Origin: Mollicutes bacterium
GTDB taxonomy: Bacteria > Bacillota_I > Bacilli_A > RFN20 > CAG-826
Assembly: GCA_022780025.1 (NCBI GenBank)
Contig: JALEXS010000040.1
Span: 1 to 38,348, forward strand
DNA: 38,348 nt
Reading direction: 5' to 3'
How positions within the stretch are numbered: position 1 is the first letter of the stretch; every line of letters starts with the position of its first letter. The notes beneath the pieces were generated by a model. The model was not told the DNA's origin, made no database searches, and worked only from the letters and a program-made list of their open reading frames with translations. The translations under genes and the position numbers were made by a program. This document shows, piece after piece, positions 6,006 through 14,194 of this stretch.

Positions 6006-7337
6006 TTAATAATTACTATCTAATAATAAATATATTTTAAATTCTGTACCGACTTTTCTTCTTTTTAATTCAATATGTCCATTAGCATTATTTAATTGAG
6101 ATTTAATTAAATATAGACCTAATCCTTCATTATTATTTTTTTCTTCTTTATAAGGATTAAAGATGTGTTCAGGATCACTAATTCCTTTTCCATCATCAAT
6201 TATTTTAATAATGTAGTAATAAGGACTAACTGATGTTTTAATTCTAATTGTTTTACAATTAGAATGTTCTAAAGCATTAAATAAGATATTTTTAATAGAA
6301 CTATCTAATACAAATTTATTAGATATTACCATACCTTCTTTAATTTTATTAATTTTAAGTTCTATTCCTAAAGCGTAAGCATCTTCTTTAAGTTCATCAT
6401 ATATATTTAATAAAATATCTTGAATATTTACACTTTCTAAAATAGTAGGTGTAAAGTTTTCTTTAGAAAAAGAACTACCTTCTTTAATTATATTTAGTTG
6501 AGATTCATTATGTTTAATTAATCCTTCTATTAAAGTTTCTTTTTCTAATTCATTAGAATTAGCTTTTAGTAATTCTAATGAATTTCTTTCTAAGATTAAT
6601 TCATTTTTTAAATCATGAAATAATACTCTTAATACTTTTTGAATATCATCGCTATTATCGATAACATTACCAACATCAATAACTTTAGCATTAGTTAATT
6701 TATATCTTTTAGCATTTAATATAAGATTATGATAAATTACGCCAACAGATATTAAAGCAAAAGTTAATACATAAATAAAACTAGGAGCCAATAAAAATCC
6801 ATAATTAAAAGCAGAAATAAAAGAAATTATTGGCATTAAACTAGCAAAAATCATAAAAATATCAGGTGTTTTTTTAGTATGCATAATTAATATAGAACTA
6901 TAAATAATTTCTATTAAAATAAGTCCTAAATAAATAGCTTTAAATAATACATATGTTTCTAAATGTAAGGAGAATAAAGTAATGTCAGTTATTATAAAAG
7001 CTAAATTAAGTGCTAATAATATGAAATTTAATGTTTTTATTTTATTAAGTCTAAAACAAGGTAAACTTAAAGGAATTAAATCTAAACTAATTACAATTAG
7101 ATAAAACCAAAAAATAGGAATAGTAGAAGAATCATAATTGATAAAGAAAATTGATATAACATAAATTACTAAAATAACACCTAAACTAATTAATATAAAA
7201 TTAGTAGGTGCTTTTTTAGATAATACAATAAATAAAATAAGACTACTTATACTACATAAACTAAATGTTAAAGTTAATATAAGTTGTAATTGATTATAAA
7301 AAGAATAAGAAGCAATTTTATCATAAGTTCCAAACAT
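6006..7337 (-). CDS. Seven-transmembrane sensor histidine kinase (7TM-DISM-like)
   Basis: This 443-aa membrane kinase should autophosphorylate and pass phosphate to the regulator encoded two genes upstream. Residues about 18-205 form roughly seven hydrophobic segments. The DHp segment has the phospho-acceptor in FHDLKNEL (H241). The ATPase domain shows an N box (about 350-359, N354), a G1 box DDGKGI (381-386) and a G2 box GLGLYL (405-410). The N-terminus begins with FGTYDKI and then a membrane segment, which resembles the junction after the extracellular domain in 7TM-DISM receptors. No extracellular domain precedes it in this frame; one is encoded by the gene just upstream. I see no good ribosome-binding site before ATG 7337. 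It may be translationally coupled, or be the back half of a receptor split by a frameshift. Confidence 0.85.
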   Translation of the reverse strand: MFGTYDKIASYSFYNQLQLILTLTFSLCSISSLILFIVLSKKAPTNFILISLGVILVIYVISIFFINYDSSTIPIFWFYLIVISLDLIPLSLPCFRLNKIKTLNFILLALNLAFIITDITLFSLHLETYVLFKAIYLGLILIEIIYSSILIMHTKKTPDIFMIFASLMPIISFISAFNYGFLLAPSFIYVLTFALISVGVIYHNLILNAKRYKLTNAKVIDVGNVIDNSDDIQKVLRVLFHDLKNELILERNSLELLKANSNELEKETLIEGLIKHNESQLNIIKEGSSFSKENFTPTILESVNIQDILLNIYDELKEDAYALGIELKINKIKEGMVISNKFVLDSSIKNILFNALEHSNCKTIRIKTSVSPYYYIIKIIDDGKGISDPEHIFNPYKEEKNNNEGLGLYLIKSQLNNANGHIELKRRKVGTEFKIYLLLDSNY

Positions 7338-7351
7338 GAAACTTAAATTTT

Positions 7352-8014
7352 TTAAATAACATTAGGATTAATCTTATAATGAATTGTAAATATATTAGTA
7401 TGAGGAATACTTCTAGCACTATAAGGAGGTAAATTAATATTTAAAGGTATAGTATTACTTTTAAATTCTTTACTAATTACTTTAGCTTCACATTGACTAA
7501 AGTCTTTATTAATAGCATCATATTTAGCAAATGATCCATTAGTTCTTATTAAATTATCATTTAAATAAACATAATATACATCAAAAACATGAGGGATATA
7601 TAAACCAAATTTAACATTATTTAATCCATCAGCATAATTTTTAAATTTATTATAAATTACTTCATAATCTATTTCGCTTTCATAATTAAATTCTTCAATA
7701 CCAATATAAATAGTACCGTATTCACTAAGACCATTAGATATATTATAACCTTTTCCTTTCCTAATATCTTTAACGTCAGTAAATTTATTAGGTACATAAT
7801 CAACATAATTTATTAAATTAAATCTAGTAGGTTCAATAGTATTTACAGAATAAGAAACATAATCTACTTCGTTATCTTGCTTTATTTTATAATTAAAAGT
7901 AGAAGTAGATTTATAAAGTACTAAAAAAGATAATAATATAGATAATATAAAAGATATAAATAAAGTAATAAACGATACTTTTTCTAAAGTATCTACTTTT
8001 TGATTAGCCTTCAT
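7352..8014 (-). CDS. Membrane-anchored extracellular sensor domain (7TM-DISM extracellular-like)
   Basis: This 220-aa protein has a short cytoplasmic N-terminus, one membrane segment (about residues 13-34) and an extracellular domain of about 185 residues. The domain pattern SEYGTIYIGIE, then FGLYIPHVFDVYYVYLNDNLI followed by TNG, resembles the beta-sandwich ligand-binding domains of 7TM-DISM receptors. I chose ATG 8014, which overlaps the end of the response-regulator gene by 11 bases; an upstream in-frame ATG at 8077 would sit deep inside that gene. It stops 14 bases before the kinase gene, in a different frame. It probably supplies the ligand-sensing part of the kinase, either as a separate subunit or as the front of a now broken single gene. 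The ligand is unknown. Confidence 0.6.
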   Translation of the reverse strand: MKANQKVDTLEKVSFITLFISFILSILLSFLVLYKSTSTFNYKIKQDNEVDYVSYSVNTIEPTRFNLINYVDYVPNKFTDVKDIRKGKGYNISNGLSEYGTIYIGIEEFNYESEIDYEVIYNKFKNYADGLNNVKFGLYIPHVFDVYYVYLNDNLIRTNGSFAKYDAINKDFSQCEAKVISKEFKSNTIPLNINLPPYSARSIPHTNIFTIHYKINPNVI

Positions 8015-8657
8015 CGGAAATAAAATAATATCCTTTTGCATATTGAGTAAAGATATATTTAAAGCTAGATACATCACTTATTTTCTTTCTTAAACTAGAA
8101 ATATGTCTAGAGACACTAGTTCTTAAATTAAGTGAATCTTGTTGCCAAACTTCTTCATATATCTTATCAGGAGTAAAACATTTACCTTCATTTTGAGCTA
8201 AAAATAATAAAATATTAAATTCACTAGCAGTTAAAGGTAATTCTTTATTAGCAATAGTAACTTCTCTAGTATTTAAATTAATTTTCATTTCTTTAAATAT
8301 TAAAATATTATTTACTTTTAATCTTGATTCAATATGAGCTAATAAAGTAGATGGTTTACATGGTTTAATTAAATAATCTAATGCTCCATTATCTAAATAT
8401 TTACATATAAAAGAATAATCATCAATCGAACTTAATATAATAATTGGTACTTTATTAGCTAATTCAATAAATATTTCTTCTCCATTACCATCTGGTAATA
8501 TTAAATCTAATACTATTAAATCAAATGCATTATTTTTTAAAGCATCTTTAGCTTCTTTAACGTTACTAGCTTTAGTAACGTTAAATTTATCTTTTAAAAA
8601 TAATGCATTATTATTTAATACTTCTAAGTTGTCTTCAATTAATAATATATTTTTCAT
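8004..8657 (-). CDS. OmpR/PhoB-family response regulator
   Basis: This 217-aa regulator has a receiver domain (acidic pocket IEDN near residues 8-10, phospho-acceptor D51 in VLDLILPDG, and K98 in LIKP) and a C-terminal winged-helix DNA-binding domain (about 125-217). It is the first gene of the minus-strand two-component operon and overlaps the next gene by 11 bases. The ATG at 8657 has no clear ribosome-binding site. A TATAAT lies on the minus strand at 8680-8675, which would give a leader of only about 10 nt. Divergent placement from the secretion cassette and nearby repeated half-sites suggest that it controls that cassette and itself; this is inference. Confidence 0.93.
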   Translation of the reverse strand: MKNILLIEDNLEVLNNNALFLKDKFNVTKASNVKEAKDALKNNAFDLIVLDLILPDGNGEEIFIELANKVPIIILSSIDDYSFICKYLDNGALDYLIKPCKPSTLLAHIESRLKVNNILIFKEMKINLNTREVTIANKELPLTASEFNILLFLAQNEGKCFTPDKIYEEVWQQDSLNLRTSVSRHISSLRKKISDVSSFKYIFTQYAKGYYFISDEG

Positions 8658-9027
8658 ATCAAAATATTAGCACAATTATATGCATATTTAAATTAATATA
8701 TATATAAATTAATTTGTTATGTTTTGTTACTTTATTAATATTTTATTGATTTATTTATTAATTAAATATTATTCAATTTATTAAAAATATTATAATTAAT
8801 TAAAAATATAATAAGTATTGATATTAGAGTTATATTTTTAAAATAGCAGTGTCAATATACGACTATAACAAATGTTATTTTATAATCCAATATAGAATTA
8901 ATAATAAATATAGTAAATTTTTATTGTTACGAAATGTAACCAAAAAGTAACCATAGGTGCATTTATGTTGAAATGATAATTTTAATAATCAATAATAATA
9001 TGCTTTTTATAGGGGGTAAATGATTAT
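8658..9027. promoter_or_regulatory. Divergent intergenic region with clustered GTAAC/ATAAC half-sites
   Basis: This 370-bp gene-free spacer contains seven related 5-mers. Two lie near the regulator gene (8716-8720 and 8726-8730, reading ATAAC and GTAAC on the minus strand, 10-bp period). One inverted pair lies at 8865-8869/8874-8878. A cluster of three lies at 8926-8930 (inverted), 8936-8940 and 8947-8951; the last two are direct GTAACC copies with an 11-bp period. A possible -10 GATAAT (8975-8980) follows with no recognisable -35, as expected for an activator-dependent promoter. OmpR-family regulators commonly bind direct repeats of 10-11 bp, so these are plausible sites for the adjacent regulator. 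Confidence 0.5.
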
Positions 9028-9702
9028 ATGAAAAGAAAATTAATGTTAGGTTTATTATCCGCTGTTGGTGGATTAACTATTATTGGAAGTGGCTTTAGTG
9101 CTTGGTATTTCGGAGATAGTAATATTGTCAAAAATAGCAATATTGATGCACATGTTACACCTTTAGCTTCCGCTTTTGGTGAAATTACAACATCAGATAT
9201 TAGTGGTGTTTCATTACAATTAGATCAAGGTGGCTATGAAAATGCTAAGGATGTTACTAAAGGAATATCATTCACTTATGGTACAGAAAGTACTTTTAAT
9301 AGCGATATAACCGGTACTTATACAATTAGTGGAGATAATTCTAAGAAAGCTAATGATGCAGGATTAAAGGCAACATTTGAGTGTGTTGTTACTTTAAAGA
9401 AAGAATACGCTGAGTTTATTGAATTCAAAGATGGCTTTTATGGTGAAACATTTACTAGAAGTTCAGATACAGCTGGAAATACAACAATTAACTTAAGTAA
9501 ACCTATTACTTTTGGTGTTGGTTTAACAGAAACTTTTACTTTCCATGTTTCAACAAATGATCAAAAAGTTAATACTGCATTCCAATACAAAGAAAATAAA
9601 AAACCAACAAATTCAACAGATTTTGCAAAACTTTATGCTTTAAATGATAAAGCTAGTAATGTTTTAACTTTCAACTATTCTTTAAAAGTAGTTTCTAAAT
9701 AA
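9028..9702 (+). CDS. Small secreted protein with SipW-type signal peptide
   Basis: This 224-aa exported protein has a basic start, a hydrophobic core and the motif GSGFSAWYFG (residues about 21-30). That resembles the atypical signal peptides cleaved by SipW/ER-type signal peptidases. The mature part is rich in Thr, Ser and Phe and looks like an extended beta protein, with no catalytic motif. It shares weak but repeated patterns with the gene at 10752: N-x-x-I-D-x-x-V-T after the signal, a D-[LV]-T-x-G-I-x-F segment, and KKPT followed by a short helix with LY near the C-terminus. I infer a paralogue pair. A TasA-like fibre role is possible but not shown. AGGGGG (9011-9016) precedes the ATG, and a 3-codon AUG-AUU-AUA-UGA (9020-9031) overlaps the start. 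Confidence 0.75.
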   Translation: MKRKLMLGLLSAVGGLTIIGSGFSAWYFGDSNIVKNSNIDAHVTPLASAFGEITTSDISGVSLQLDQGGYENAKDVTKGISFTYGTESTFNSDITGTYTISGDNSKKANDAGLKATFECVVTLKKEYAEFIEFKDGFYGETFTRSSDTAGNTTINLSKPITFGVGLTETFTFHVSTNDQKVNTAFQYKENKKPTNSTDFAKLYALNDKASNVLTFNYSLKVVSK

Positions 9703-9760
9703 TTGAATTAAAAAATATTTAAACTTATATATTATATAAATAGAAAGGATGGTAATAGTT

Positions 9761-10750
9761 ATGACGGGAAGTAGTCGTTTAATAGATGTTGCATTTTATG
9801 TAGCTTTATTCACTATTATAGGGTTAGCTATTACTTTTTCCTTGCTATTTTTTCTTTATGCTCGATATAAGAGAAAACATATTAAATATGGACATGAAGA
9901 TGAAAAATTATTAAAAGAATTAAAAAGAAAATATAAAAATATATTATCTAAGGATGATCATGATCTAATTGATACTTATAATGATGATAGTAAGTATCAA
10001 TTAGAATATGCTGATAGAGTTAAAAATGTTGAAACATTTTTATATAATCATCCAGAAGTAGAGAAAAAAGATAAAGTTAGATTAGCTAAATTATTAAATT
10101 TAGATGAAGAAAAAGAAAAAAGAAGAAAGAAAAGAAGTAGAATATATACAATTATATTCTCTAGTATATTTATAGTAATTATTATCTTAATAGCTTCATT
10201 TAAATTTAATGGAGAATGTTTTTATTTAGGGGATGAAACTTATATTGTTATTAAGACTGGATCAATGGAAACAGTTAATGATAAGAATACATATATAAAA
10301 GAAAATAACTTAAAGAATCAAATAACTCAATTTTCTTTAATTGGATTAAAGAAAATTAAAGAAGAAGATATTAAAGTATATGATGTAGTTGGTTTTAAAA
10401 ATGATGAAGGTGATATCATAGTTCACCGTATTATTAGAATTAACTATAATAGTGAAGAAAATAAGAATTATTATACATTCCAAGGGGATGCTAATAGTGC
10501 TAGTAATAAATATGAATTAGCAGTAAGTTATGATAAATTTGTTGGTAAATATACTGGATTTAATAATTATGGATTAGGTGTACTTATTACTTATTTAAAA
10601 AGTAGTGCTGGTATAGTTGCTTTATGTAGTTGTATATTCTTTTTAGTTACTTTTAATTATTCAGAAGATGCAATTGATAAAGAATATAAGAAACGTTTTA
10701 GATATGTTGCTGATGTCTATGATAAAGATAAAGATTTAGGAGTTATTTAA
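9761..10750 (+). CDS. sipW: SipW/ER-type signal peptidase I with extra cytoplasmic domain
   Basis: This protein of about 329 aa belongs to the S26B signal peptidases, which use a Ser-His pair instead of Ser-Lys. The nucleophile is S168 in IKTGSM, the His is H222 in GDIIVHR, and the GDAN box is at about 242-245. A membrane segment precedes the catalytic domain and another follows it (near LVTF). Unusually, there is an additional N-terminal membrane segment (about residues 6-33) and a highly charged region of roughly 95 residues before the catalytic part. I chose ATG 9761 because AAAGGA lies about 11 bases upstream; the in-frame ATG at 9749 overlaps that site. Its neighbours on both sides have SipW-type signal peptides and are its likely substrates. 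Confidence 0.85.
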   Translation: MTGSSRLIDVAFYVALFTIIGLAITFSLLFFLYARYKRKHIKYGHEDEKLLKELKRKYKNILSKDDHDLIDTYNDDSKYQLEYADRVKNVETFLYNHPEVEKKDKVRLAKLLNLDEEKEKRRKKRSRIYTIIFSSIFIVIIILIASFKFNGECFYLGDETYIVIKTGSMETVNDKNTYIKENNLKNQITQFSLIGLKKIKEEDIKVYDVVGFKNDEGDIIVHRIIRINYNSEENKNYYTFQGDANSASNKYELAVSYDKFVGKYTGFNNYGLGVLITYLKSSAGIVALCSCIFFLVTFNYSEDAIDKEYKKRFRYVADVYDKDKDLGVI

Positions 10751-10751
10751 A

Positions 10752-11420
10752 GTGAATATACGTAAGATATTATATGTATTTCTTCCTATTATTTCTTTAT
10801 TAACTATTTTAGGTATTGGATTTTCTAGCTGGGCTTTTGGACCTTTAGAAATTGAAAGTAAGAACCAATCAATTGATGTAAAAGTTACTAATAGTATTAC
10901 AAATGGTAAATTACATTTAATTAGTTCACCTGATTTAGTTGTTTTTAGTGAAGGTGTTGGTAAAGTTGAAGATTTAACTGATGGAATCGAGTTTTATCGT
11001 AAAAATAAAGATGCTAATTTAAATGAAGAAGTTTATGTTAATGATCCTTTATTAACGTTAGATTATGAAATTATAGATAGCGAAGATTCAATCGATTATT
11101 TAAATGAATTTTCTTTATTTATTAATATTGATCCTCTTAATAGTGGAGAAAATTCATTAAAGAATTATATTGGTTTAACTTCTAAATATAGTGATGCTGG
11201 AACAACTACAGGATATAACTTTAAAAAGAATATTACTAAATTAAATAAAGATGAAATATATCCTTTAGGTGGATTTAGATTTCAATTAGATTTAAATGAA
11301 ACTATTCAATATATAGATTTAAGTAAAAAACCAACAACATTTGAAAAATATGAAGAGTTATATAATAAACTAAATACTCTTGAAAAATTGTATATACAAA
11401 TATTATTTAGGATTAGTTAA
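10752..11420 (+). CDS. Second small secreted protein with SipW-type signal peptide
   Basis: This 222-aa protein starts at a GTG one base after the peptidase stop, supported by TAGGAG eight bases upstream. Its signal peptide ends in GIGFSSWAFG (about residues 21-30), matching the motif of the two other exported proteins in the operon. The mature chain is acidic and Asp/Asn/Leu-rich with no recognised domain. It shares with the 9028 product an IDVKVT stretch after the signal, a DLTDGIEF segment and a KKPTTFEKYEELY segment near the C-terminus. Placement next to a dedicated peptidase suggests it is cleaved by it and works outside the cell with its paralogue. Confidence 0.72.
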   Translation: MNIRKILYVFLPIISLLTILGIGFSSWAFGPLEIESKNQSIDVKVTNSITNGKLHLISSPDLVVFSEGVGKVEDLTDGIEFYRKNKDANLNEEVYVNDPLLTLDYEIIDSEDSIDYLNEFSLFINIDPLNSGENSLKNYIGLTSKYSDAGTTTGYNFKKNITKLNKDEIYPLGGFRFQLDLNETIQYIDLSKKPTTFEKYEELYNKLNTLEKLYIQILFRIS

Positions 11421-11423
11421 AAG

Positions 11424-14027
11424 ATGAGTAAATGGATTAAAAGAATATTTTTATTTATTGCAACCTTAGTTACTGGACTAAGTTCTTTTGGCTTATCTAG
11501 TTGGTATTTTTCTGAAACAAAAGAAATAAATAAGAAAATTGATAATTCTAATAATAACAATGGTTATAGAATGGATGATATTGAAGAGAATTATCGATTT
11601 GGTAAAGCTAATGAAGATAAGCAATATACAATGTATTTCTTTCCTAGCGCTGCTTATATGTTTTTATATGCTAGATATTTAGAAGATAATACTTTATATT
11701 ATGGACCTCATTATTTACCTGAAGAAGAATTTGGATATAAAGAAGTTTTAACTAATGAATCTGGTAATGTTTTAACTGATAAAGATGGCAATGCTTTATT
11801 TAAATTAAGTGAAAATACAGGTAAATATCAAAATGATGTTAATATTAATAGTGATACAAGCTATGATGGCAGTTATAAATTATTTATAAATAAACATTTT
11901 AGAATTAACGATGAGACTGAATTAGATGGTAAAGCTGGTAGTGGCAGTATTTACGAACATAGTCAAAAATCTGGTAGAACTTGGGGTTCGCCTACTGATA
12001 CATTGACTTTTGATCCTAATAATAAGAATCGCGTGGAGCAATATAATGGTAAAGATTTGTTTTCTTTAGATCGCTTTGGATGTTGGGGTGATTCTTATTA
12101 TTATGGATATAGTGGAGATGAAAATGGTGCTAATGTTACTTTTATAAATGATGAAAAAGCTAATTCATCTAATACTGGAAGATATTTACCAATTAAAATG
12201 ACTGTATCTAACGCAATGTCAATTGATTTATTGAATAAAGTTATTGGTGATGTATTTTCTTCAATGGGAGATATTAGAGAATGGTATAATTTTAGTTTTA
12301 CTAACTGGACTTATGTAACTAAAAATAATGATGGCACTTATTCTTATCCTTATGATTGGAGAAATAATAATTATACGACCGATGCTTTTAAACCAATAGG
12401 TGAAGCTTTTAGTGCTAAAGATATTGATCGTTATTTTGATGTTTTTGAAGACTTATATAAATTTGCTGATGAAAATGGAGTTATTAGATTATTTCCTTTA
12501 TTTTCTAATGGTAAAAAATATAATGCATCTAGTTATACTGATGGTGGTGCTGATTGTTTTAAATTAATCGGCGATTATCAAGATAATAGAAACACTAGTT
12601 ATCGATATTTTATGCCTTCTAGTGAAAGAATTCATGATGGCAGTGATAATTTTTTAGGTACTAAAATACCTAATAGTAATGTACGTTATTACACTTATAA
12701 TTATTTAAAACTTAAAAAGAATCATAATTTTAGTTCTTTAAAAATTGCAATTGACTGGACTGAAAGCAAACCAAAAAATTGGGCTGGAACTTGGCACGAT
12801 ATATATTCATTAGATTTAAATTATATTAATAATGAACTCATTAATAAATATGGTGATGGTCTATATAATTTTTATTTATTCCAAGGCAATTTTGATCATA
12901 AATCTAATGAAATTAGCTATGATGATTTTTATAATAAAATTAAAACTGAAGCAGTAGGCAAAAATGGCTTTAAAACATTAAAAGGCAAATCGATTCAATT
13001 TCTTAATATGCCTGATTTACTTAAAAAATATGAAAAAAAGTGGAATTGGATTTCATATAAATATCCTTCAAGCCCTTACAATGTTTCTCCTGTTATTTTT
13101 GCATTTGAAAAAATTGATGATCCTAAGATTATTGATAATGTTGATATTAAAGGTGAAGGTAGTAATTTAACATATGAATCTATTGATAAATTAGATGAAT
13201 ATATAGTTAAAAAATCAGTTAATGCCCATGGATTTACTAGAATATCATCACCAATATATGGCAGAAAATTAGTTGGCGAATCTTACACTTATTCTAATAA
13301 TTTAAACGAAATGAATCCATATACATATATTGCTAAAAATGTTAATTTTATGAATGCTAAAACTAATTATTTTATTATAGCTTTTAGGGATGTTTATATT
13401 AGTAATGTTAATATTAAAATTAAGAGTGAAAATTATGATAGTGTTGTAGTTGATCCTACAATAGCAGGAATTAATTATACTTATAATCCTGAAGATTTAT
13501 TTGCCAATGCAAGTGAATATATTGATAGAGTTACTTTCTCTACTGGCGATGGTAATAAATATGGTGTTCTTACCTTTAATAATGATGATTTTAAAGGTGT
13601 CTATGATATTTTATTAGTATTTGAAGGTAATAACACATTTGCCTTATATTTTTATCGACATACTAATTTATTCTTGAAAATATTTAGTAATGATTTGACT
13701 AGTTATCAAGATAATTTCTTACTACATGATGAAAATGTCTTAACTGAAGCAGATTTAATCTTTAAAAAGAAATATTTCTTAGGATTAACTATGAATAGGA
13801 ACGATAAAAATAGCATAAGCGGATTAGAGAATCAAACTTTAGAAGATGCTATTATAAATTATGTCTATGAAAAGAAAGGAAATGACTACGATTTAAGTAA
13901 TATTAGAGTAATAGATCACGTTACTAAAACTGTTGTAGCTAAATTTATTTCTAAAAATGGATCTTACGAGCTAGAATGTAATCAAAAGATATATAAAAAC
14001 TATGTATTTTATTTATCAATTGAATAA
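11424..14027 (+). CDS. Large secreted protein of unknown function with SipW-type signal peptide
   Basis: I do not recognise this 867-aa protein. Its N-terminus has a hydrophobic core and the same motif, GLSSWYFS (about residues 23-30), which links it to the co-encoded signal peptidase. The mature protein is rich in Tyr, Asn, Asp and aromatic residues, with stretches such as WGDSYYYGYSGD and many short polar loops, typical of large extracellular beta proteins. There is no LPxTG motif and no C-terminal membrane segment, so it should be released or held non-covalently. It is the last gene of the cassette, three bases after the preceding stop, and has only a weak AGGA ribosome-binding site. An adhesin or matrix role is a guess. 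Confidence 0.7.
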   Translation: MSKWIKRIFLFIATLVTGLSSFGLSSWYFSETKEINKKIDNSNNNNGYRMDDIEENYRFGKANEDKQYTMYFFPSAAYMFLYARYLEDNTLYYGPHYLPEEEFGYKEVLTNESGNVLTDKDGNALFKLSENTGKYQNDVNINSDTSYDGSYKLFINKHFRINDETELDGKAGSGSIYEHSQKSGRTWGSPTDTLTFDPNNKNRVEQYNGKDLFSLDRFGCWGDSYYYGYSGDENGANVTFINDEKANSSNTGRYLPIKMTVSNAMSIDLLNKVIGDVFSSMGDIREWYNFSFTNWTYVTKNNDGTYSYPYDWRNNNYTTDAFKPIGEAFSAKDIDRYFDVFEDLYKFADENGVIRLFPLFSNGKKYNASSYTDGGADCFKLIGDYQDNRNTSYRYFMPSSERIHDGSDNFLGTKIPNSNVRYYTYNYLKLKKNHNFSSLKIAIDWTESKPKNWAGTWHDIYSLDLNYINNELINKYGDGLYNFYLFQGNFDHKSNEISYDDFYNKIKTEAVGKNGFKTLKGKSIQFLNMPDLLKKYEKKWNWISYKYPSSPYNVSPVIFAFEKIDDPKIIDNVDIKGEGSNLTYESIDKLDEYIVKKSVNAHGFTRISSPIYGRKLVGESYTYSNNLNEMNPYTYIAKNVNFMNAKTNYFIIAFRDVYISNVNIKIKSENYDSVVVDPTIAGINYTYNPEDLFANASEYIDRVTFSTGDGNKYGVLTFNNDDFKGVYDILLVFEGNNTFALYFYRHTNLFLKIFSNDLTSYQDNFLLHDENVLTEADLIFKKKYFLGLTMNRNDKNSISGLENQTLEDAIINYVYEKKGNDYDLSNIRVIDHVTKTVVAKFISKNGSYELECNQKIYKNYVFYLSIE

Positions 14028-14171: not shown

Positions 14172-14194
14172 AAGGGGGATTAACCCCTTTTTTG
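14172..14194 (+). terminator. Terminator-like hairpin in the PhnDCEE leader
   Basis: AAGGGG pairs with CCCCTT around a short loop and is followed by a T-run. It lies between the proposed promoter and phnD, so it could act as an attenuator. It could also be the end of the upstream secretion operon, which otherwise lacks a terminator. No known riboswitch is recognisable. Confidence 0.6.

Follow-up and report, generated by a model that had tools for sequence, protein, structure and literature searches.

SipW-type signal peptidases are known from a few matrix operons of Bacillus and Clostridium. The TasA/camelysin proteins are recognized by a jelly-roll fold whose N-terminal strand complements its own subunit and is then donated. 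In TasA fibers the freed N terminus serves as the donor strand in donor-strand exchange (PMC9674648), and the cleavage site of the precursor reads TWA|AF; its two aromatic residues, Trp at P2 and Phe at P2', hinder the ordinary LepB enzyme (PMC10269814). In the Clostridium perfringens sipW-bsaABCRSD locus, BsaA polymerizes and needs SipW, and the locus is under two-component control (PMC7395162). The Bacillus cereus system consists of two homologous fiber subunits, TasA and CalY, and an assembly factor, CapP, all SipW-processed and sortase-free (PMC13082335).

The window analyzed here, a stretch of 38,348 bases, corresponds to contig C79 in the 1.43-Mb draft genome (G000) of an uncultured gut species of Bacilli. 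Three exported proteins of 224, 222, and 867 aa together with a Ser-His signal peptidase had been predicted in this DNA, and the open reading frames bear this out: on the forward strand, protein A (224 aa; 9028..9702) is followed by an S26B peptidase (9761..10750), protein B (222 aa, with a GTG start; 10752..11420), and protein C (867 aa; 11424..14027). The peptidase and B are separated by 1 base and B and C by 3 bases, giving an operon-like run of four genes that we read as a tight operon at 9028-14027. A promoter-like TTGAAA-17-AATAAT upstream of A (8968..8996, forward strand) is a consensus match only, and a terminator-like stem-loop with a T-run (14172..14190, forward strand) lies between C and the next gene (14260), where two overlapping ones were found against 0.9 expected. 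Divergent from A, on the reverse strand, are an OmpR-type response regulator (8004..8657), which is a candidate regulator of the cassette, the partner of the regulator, a membrane histidine kinase (6006..7337), and, between these two, a 241-aa protein that has a single hydrophobic segment and falls in no known family (7352..8077). The frame of the 241-aa protein, possibly a third signaling component, overlaps that of the response regulator as called, and its true start may be downstream of the overlap.

The locus resembles Bacillus subtilis tapA-sipW-tasA in its operon layout, with an ER-type (Ser-His) signal peptidase encoded beside exported substrates whose sizes are similar, but it differs in having a large third partner (867-1020 aa across relatives), in the several parallel modules per genome, and in that no LepB-type peptidase was detected alongside it in the window genus. 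Like C. perfringens sipW-bsaABCRSD, it brings a SipW-type enzyme together with multiple secreted proteins encoded alongside it and with a two-component system; here, however, the two-component system is divergent and is usually missing beside the cassettes of relatives, which carry poly-G upstream of A. The three SipW-processed exported proteins encoded by B. cereus sipW-tasA, calY, and capP (PMC13082335) offer a further likeness, although those subunits belong to the TasA family and CapP is separately transcribed, whereas A and B form a new family and the very large C is encoded within the operon. We file the cassette with the SipW-dependent surface-assembly systems and not as a member of the TasA family.

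The reading frame of the peptidase opens at 9749, but the ATG at 9761 is the more likely start because relatives align from there; three hydrophobic (membrane) segments are visible by eye. The catalytic boxes GSM ... VHR ... GDxN carry Ser and His with no Lys dyad, as in S26B (SipW/SEC11-type) enzymes, and Ser172, His226, and Asp247 (numbering of the 9749 frame) are invariant in 13 aligned cassette peptidases. The catalytic part matches the NCBIfam SipW model (NF046067) with 49.8 bits (E 2.9e-13), below the 190-bit equivalog cut-off, and the best match among solved structures is human SEC11C (E 2e-5). The Ser-His (S26B) identity proposed in the original prediction is thereby supported, and these matches place the enzyme in the SipW superfamily but not as the orthologue of Bacillus SipW. 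Its Ser-His-Asp catalytic region is that of SEC11 and the archaeal-type signal peptidase I (MEROPS S26B), from which it differs in having extra hydrophobic segments at both ends and in belonging to a set of peptidases that falls into module-specific clades.

When every open frame of at least 60 aa in the window is considered, the motif on which the original prediction was built, G[FL]S[AS]W[YA]F, has just three occurrences, at the N termini of A, B, and C, and it appears not once in 200 shuffles, a post hoc test given that the pattern was derived from these three proteins. Independent support for the shared signal end comes from relatives, which carry identical residues in the identical place. 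Among 59 related proteins the conserved signal reads G(P5) ... G(P3) F(P2) S/A(P1) | x W/F(P2') x F(P4'); the anchoring pattern comprised P3, P2, P1, and P2', and at the two positions outside it Gly occupies P5 in 50 of 59 proteins and Phe occupies P4' in 54 of 59. Because P1 is always small and the following residue varies freely, we infer that the cut falls between them (G22-F-S|A-W-Y-F28 in A), and G-F-S|x-W-x-F, with a small P1 and aromatics at P2 and P2', is a better description of the motif. As the TasA signal also has aromatics on both sides of its cut (PMC10269814), GFS|xW and TWA|AF follow one logic with the aromatics swapped. The claim that the Trp departs from the usual SipW-type pattern therefore needs qualification: the cassette has Trp at P2' and Phe at P2, but TasA too has a Trp, at P2 (PMC10269814). 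The cassette signal further differs from that of B. subtilis TasA by the extra conserved Phe at P4'.

Proteins A and B, said to share further segments, are in fact homologous along their whole mature length (hhalign 96%, E 4e-9, with the signal removed), B being a diverged paralogue of A. Protein A finds no match among Pfam or NCBIfam families and no clear match of fold, and apart from isolated weak matches no known domain was found in its 26 homologues; sequence searches of solved structures with A and with C returned chance-level matches only. The model of A is a beta-sandwich over residues 44-224, mostly at pLDDT 84-95, whereas residues 18-43, which span the end of the signal and the new N terminus, are disordered, as expected of a donor strand. 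A fold search with this model gave weak beta-sandwich matches at Z about 6 (integrin leg domains and the C. perfringens pilin CppA), the best having a Z of 6.2 and an rmsd of 3.7 over 126 residues; we consider these too weak to build on. Protein C, an exported protein of a new family with a D-x-I-x-x-N stretch conserved after the signal, was described as having no recognizable domain, and this is borne out: it matches no Pfam or NCBIfam family, and in 21 homologues, isolated weak matches apart, no known domain was found. Its model is of low confidence (pLDDT 66.6), the C-terminal region being better, and the fold search gave nothing above Z 4.5.

The four genes recur as a set in relatives, uncultured bacteria with genomes mostly of 1.1-1.6 Mb, of which 14 besides that of the window were examined. 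The A/peptidase/B/C set is present in every fully covered locus of this kind (type I), in two gene orders, A-peptidase-B-C and A-C-peptidase-B, and all four genes are co-inherited across the genus and other families of the order. In the phylum and class genomes sampled, A and C hardly occur outside this order, and the genomes that have one are almost the same as those that have the other, with a class-level exception for C in G439. Protein A is often duplicated in relatives, with tandem paralogues in L118 and L125. As judged by this co-inheritance, the four-gene cassette is a real unit, and it combines an ER-type peptidase with exported substrates sharing one non-canonical signal, as SipW-dependent matrix operons do. 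A cousin set in which the peptidase is fused to a long C-terminal part was found in four loci (G019, G006, G036, and G057), those of G036 and G057 belonging to another family. Peptidases fused to a long acidic C-terminal region (L073:11687-14041, L075:5798-7756, L076:1128-4169, and L079:8908-10794) hold there a repeated domain, in up to three copies by eye, and the two such regions scanned gave no Pfam match.

The idea of one dedicated cassette has to be broadened. The window genome encodes at least 12 further exported motif proteins outside the cassette and two further S26B peptidases, each with its own substrates. The peptidase on contig C3 comes after seven small motif proteins and before an AAA ATPase and a DUF2357 protein (sub-threshold Pfam names for proteins of this module were disregarded), and hhalign detected no relation of A or B to these small proteins. 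The C37 peptidase adjoins a motif protein of 909 aa that contains a Big_2 domain. Still other motif proteins, on C65, on C62, and elsewhere on C3 (L080, L081, and L082), have no peptidase linked to them. The original prediction had held that a motif present in many unlinked exported proteins would tell against dedication; this is the case in part only, because each module has its own flavor of the motif. Of the proposed self-contained export and surface-assembly system, the co-kept four-gene unit and the single peptidase clade remain, but proteins outside the cassette carry the motif as well.

The module on C3 (L005) and its very syntenic counterparts L188-L195 contain 2-7 small motif proteins, an S26B peptidase, an AAA_5 ATPase, a DUF2357 protein with a zinc ribbon, an ABC ATPase and permease, and a protein of ~840 aa; this second module has the look of a machine of its own for export or for the surface. 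A fourth module type (L202-L204) has its own S26B clade (about 305 aa) and an AAA-type ATPase, and its motif-like proteins carry ALAAYI at the signal end. A Hint-like C terminus seen by eye in a 778-aa motif protein (L082:2994-5330, G000:C62) was unconfirmed by Pfam and was set aside.

A tree was built from 40 peptidases of the genus and order that had been grouped beforehand by their neighboring genes. Each of the six neighbor-defined groups forms a single side of one branch (support 98/98 to 100/100), type-I peptidases being one clade (100/97), and the six module labels need only five changes on the tree, which is the minimum; in this phylogeny the peptidase clades match the module types exactly across the genus. 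The signals separate in a similar manner, with P4' being Phe in type I, Ile/Val/Leu in type II, and Ile/Val in type III, and leave-one-locus-out classification put 97 of 100 motifs in the right module, a separation that shared descent of the signals can explain in part. Phe at P4' is found in 45 of 48 type-I proteins versus 2 of 52 in types II and III: all 32 type-I small proteins have it, as do 13 of the 16 large ones, with Tyr in 2 more (p ~2e-9 against types II and III together). As far as is visible, the mature parts of large and small type-I proteins are not homologous, so the common Phe points to a functional constraint, either peptidase choice or a common docking strand. Motif models made from small proteins only assigned 5 of the 16 type-I large proteins to type I; because most were not so assigned, and large and small proteins differ at motif positions other than P4', the flavor shared by A/B and C lies in P4' and not in the whole motif.

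Comparison of closely related loci indicates that divergence is much faster in A, B, and C than in the peptidase or the flanks, which we take as a sign of surface exposure. Between L067 and L070, whose flanks are 92-99% identical on the right side and 71-88% on the other, identity is 96% for the peptidase and 100% for the signal of A, but 60% for A, 60% for B, and 36% for C. Between L062 and L066 the flanks are 90-98% identical, against 32% for A, 43% for B, 38% for C, and 59% for the peptidase. Upstream of A, the first type-I gene, about twelve loci have runs of 8-11 G or C (L060, L063, L067, L068, L070, L071, L072, L076, L079, L121, L125, and L205). Of 31 poly-G tracts of at least 9 genus-wide, six lie no more than 200 bp upstream of A, where 0.004 would be expected (p ~2e-18), and in L205 and L060 the tract falls between the -35-like and -10-like boxes. 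Slipped-strand, phase-variable surface loci are marked by a homopolymer tract where its length matters, in the promoter or at the gene start; the tracts in the promoter region of A suggest phase variation, and in several relatives such a tract, within the promoter or beside it, probably turns the cassette on and off. Tracts also precede the first genes of type II (L191) and type IV (L202) modules and lie near collagen-like lipoprotein genes in L205. Literature searches on SipW, combined with phase variation or with uncultured Bacilli of the gut, turned up no description of this system among the titles and abstracts covered.

The window genome has no poly-G tract of 9 or more, and on this ground we rejected phase variation of the window cassette itself. 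In this species the neighboring two-component system probably controls expression instead. A direct repeat, GTAACC-N5-GTAACC, with an 11-bp period (8936..8952, forward strand) is a candidate response-regulator site a short way upstream of the -35-like TTGAAA, 15 bases before it (0.03 expected by chance in the window, for a pattern picked after it was seen). The two-component system is mostly missing beside the cassettes of relatives; in G015 (L072), GTTACA repeats, a poly-G tract, and the gene of a related response regulator are all present upstream.

We favor, at slightly better than an even chance, the reading that this operon encodes a surface filament or adhesin, sortase-independent, SipW-processed, and built from new protein families. 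The S26B peptidase would cleave all three exported proteins behind the small residue in G-F-S|x-W-x-F, freeing in each a new N terminus that begins with hydrophobic and aromatic residues. A would then polymerize as the main beta-sandwich subunit, B would start or end the polymer as a minor subunit, and C would form its tip or cell anchor. By analogy with TasA (PMC9674648), BsaA (PMC7395162), and the B. cereus TasA/CalY/CapP system (PMC13082335), the freed N termini would probably dock into the next subunit as donor strands, so we propose that cleavage licenses assembly. This reading is favored by the co-inheritance of the four genes, the agreement of peptidase clade with module type, and the signal residues shared by the non-homologous A/B and C; by the TasA-like cleavage register, the disordered N terminus of A, its tandem paralogues, the fast divergence, and the poly-G tracts; and by sipW-bsaABCRSD, an operon of the same kind that makes polymers (PMC7395162). 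It is weakened by the missing sequence relation to TasA/camelysin, the weak structural match of A, the low-confidence model of C and its lack of a fold match, the chance that peptidases of the other modules cut A, B, and C as well, and, for regulation, by the window genome having no poly-G of 9 or more and by the scarcity of the two-component system beside other cassettes.

The S26B enzymes could instead be the general signal peptidases of the lineage, with A, B, and C merely adjoining one of them and no dedicated pairing, which we think unlikely. No LepB-type (S26A) signal peptidase I passes the curated cut-off of either of two families, TIGR02227 and PF10502, in any of 26 genus genomes including that of the window, versus 10-11 of 14 control genomes, and apart from S26B enzymes the genus yields only small proteins, about 147 aa long, of S24/S26-like type (L280 and L282). 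The S26B enzymes may thus be the only type-I signal peptidases of the genus, allowing for draft genomes and divergent enzymes, and the motif proteins without a linked peptidase fit this alternative. Each peptidase clade, however, travels with its own substrate family, motif flavor predicts the module, and the cassette-type peptidase is absent from several genus genomes, unlike a housekeeping enzyme.

A, B, and C might also form a non-polymeric surface complex, such as an adhesin or a nutrient-binding layer near the membrane, the signal marking only a shared time or place of export. Polymerization is argued here from sequence and analogy, the size and variability of C recall a receptor-binding protein, and there is no fold link to known fiber subunits; even so, the tandem duplicated A-type subunits of some relatives, the hydrophobic and aromatic new N termini common to non-homologous partners, and the likeness to the operons of TasA and BsaA make this improbable. 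That the locus is a true TasA/camelysin matrix system diverged past sequence recognition is quite unlikely in our judgment, despite the same peptidase class and signal register, a similar subunit size (PMC9674648), and canonical TasA-like genes in another family of the same order. The TasA/camelysin model PF12389 matches neither A nor B nor anything else in the window genome, with a positive B. subtilis control; TIGR04088, the 34-residue model of the SipW-cognate signal, has no match there at E <= 1, while other genomes of the order do match; and when A and B are compared by profile (hhalign) with TasA-like proteins from this order, the probability is 0.1-0.5% (A, 0.5%). TasA is also not among the structural matches listed for A, although A may still have a TasA fold. 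The parallel with TasA and SipW drawn in the original prediction thus extends to architecture and signal logic but not to sequence.

Beyond the surface filament or adhesin reading, it is possible, if doubtful, that the lineage swapped its ordinary signal peptidase for a parallel SipW-type set, with one signal variant per module, and that the type-I module adds a hypervariable, phase-variable donor-strand fiber of families unrelated in sequence to TasA. The apparent absence of a LepB-type enzyme from the genus, if confirmed, would set its export clearly apart from the bacterial standard. With three peptidase modules, each with a signal flavor of its own, this one small genome provides a natural set for studying how peptidases recognize their own substrates. 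If the fibers are real, uncultured Bacilli would have a new kind of surface structure, assembled without sortase, and the rapid change of its exposed parts from one near-identical genome to the next is what would be expected of structures that meet host immunity, phages, or competitors.
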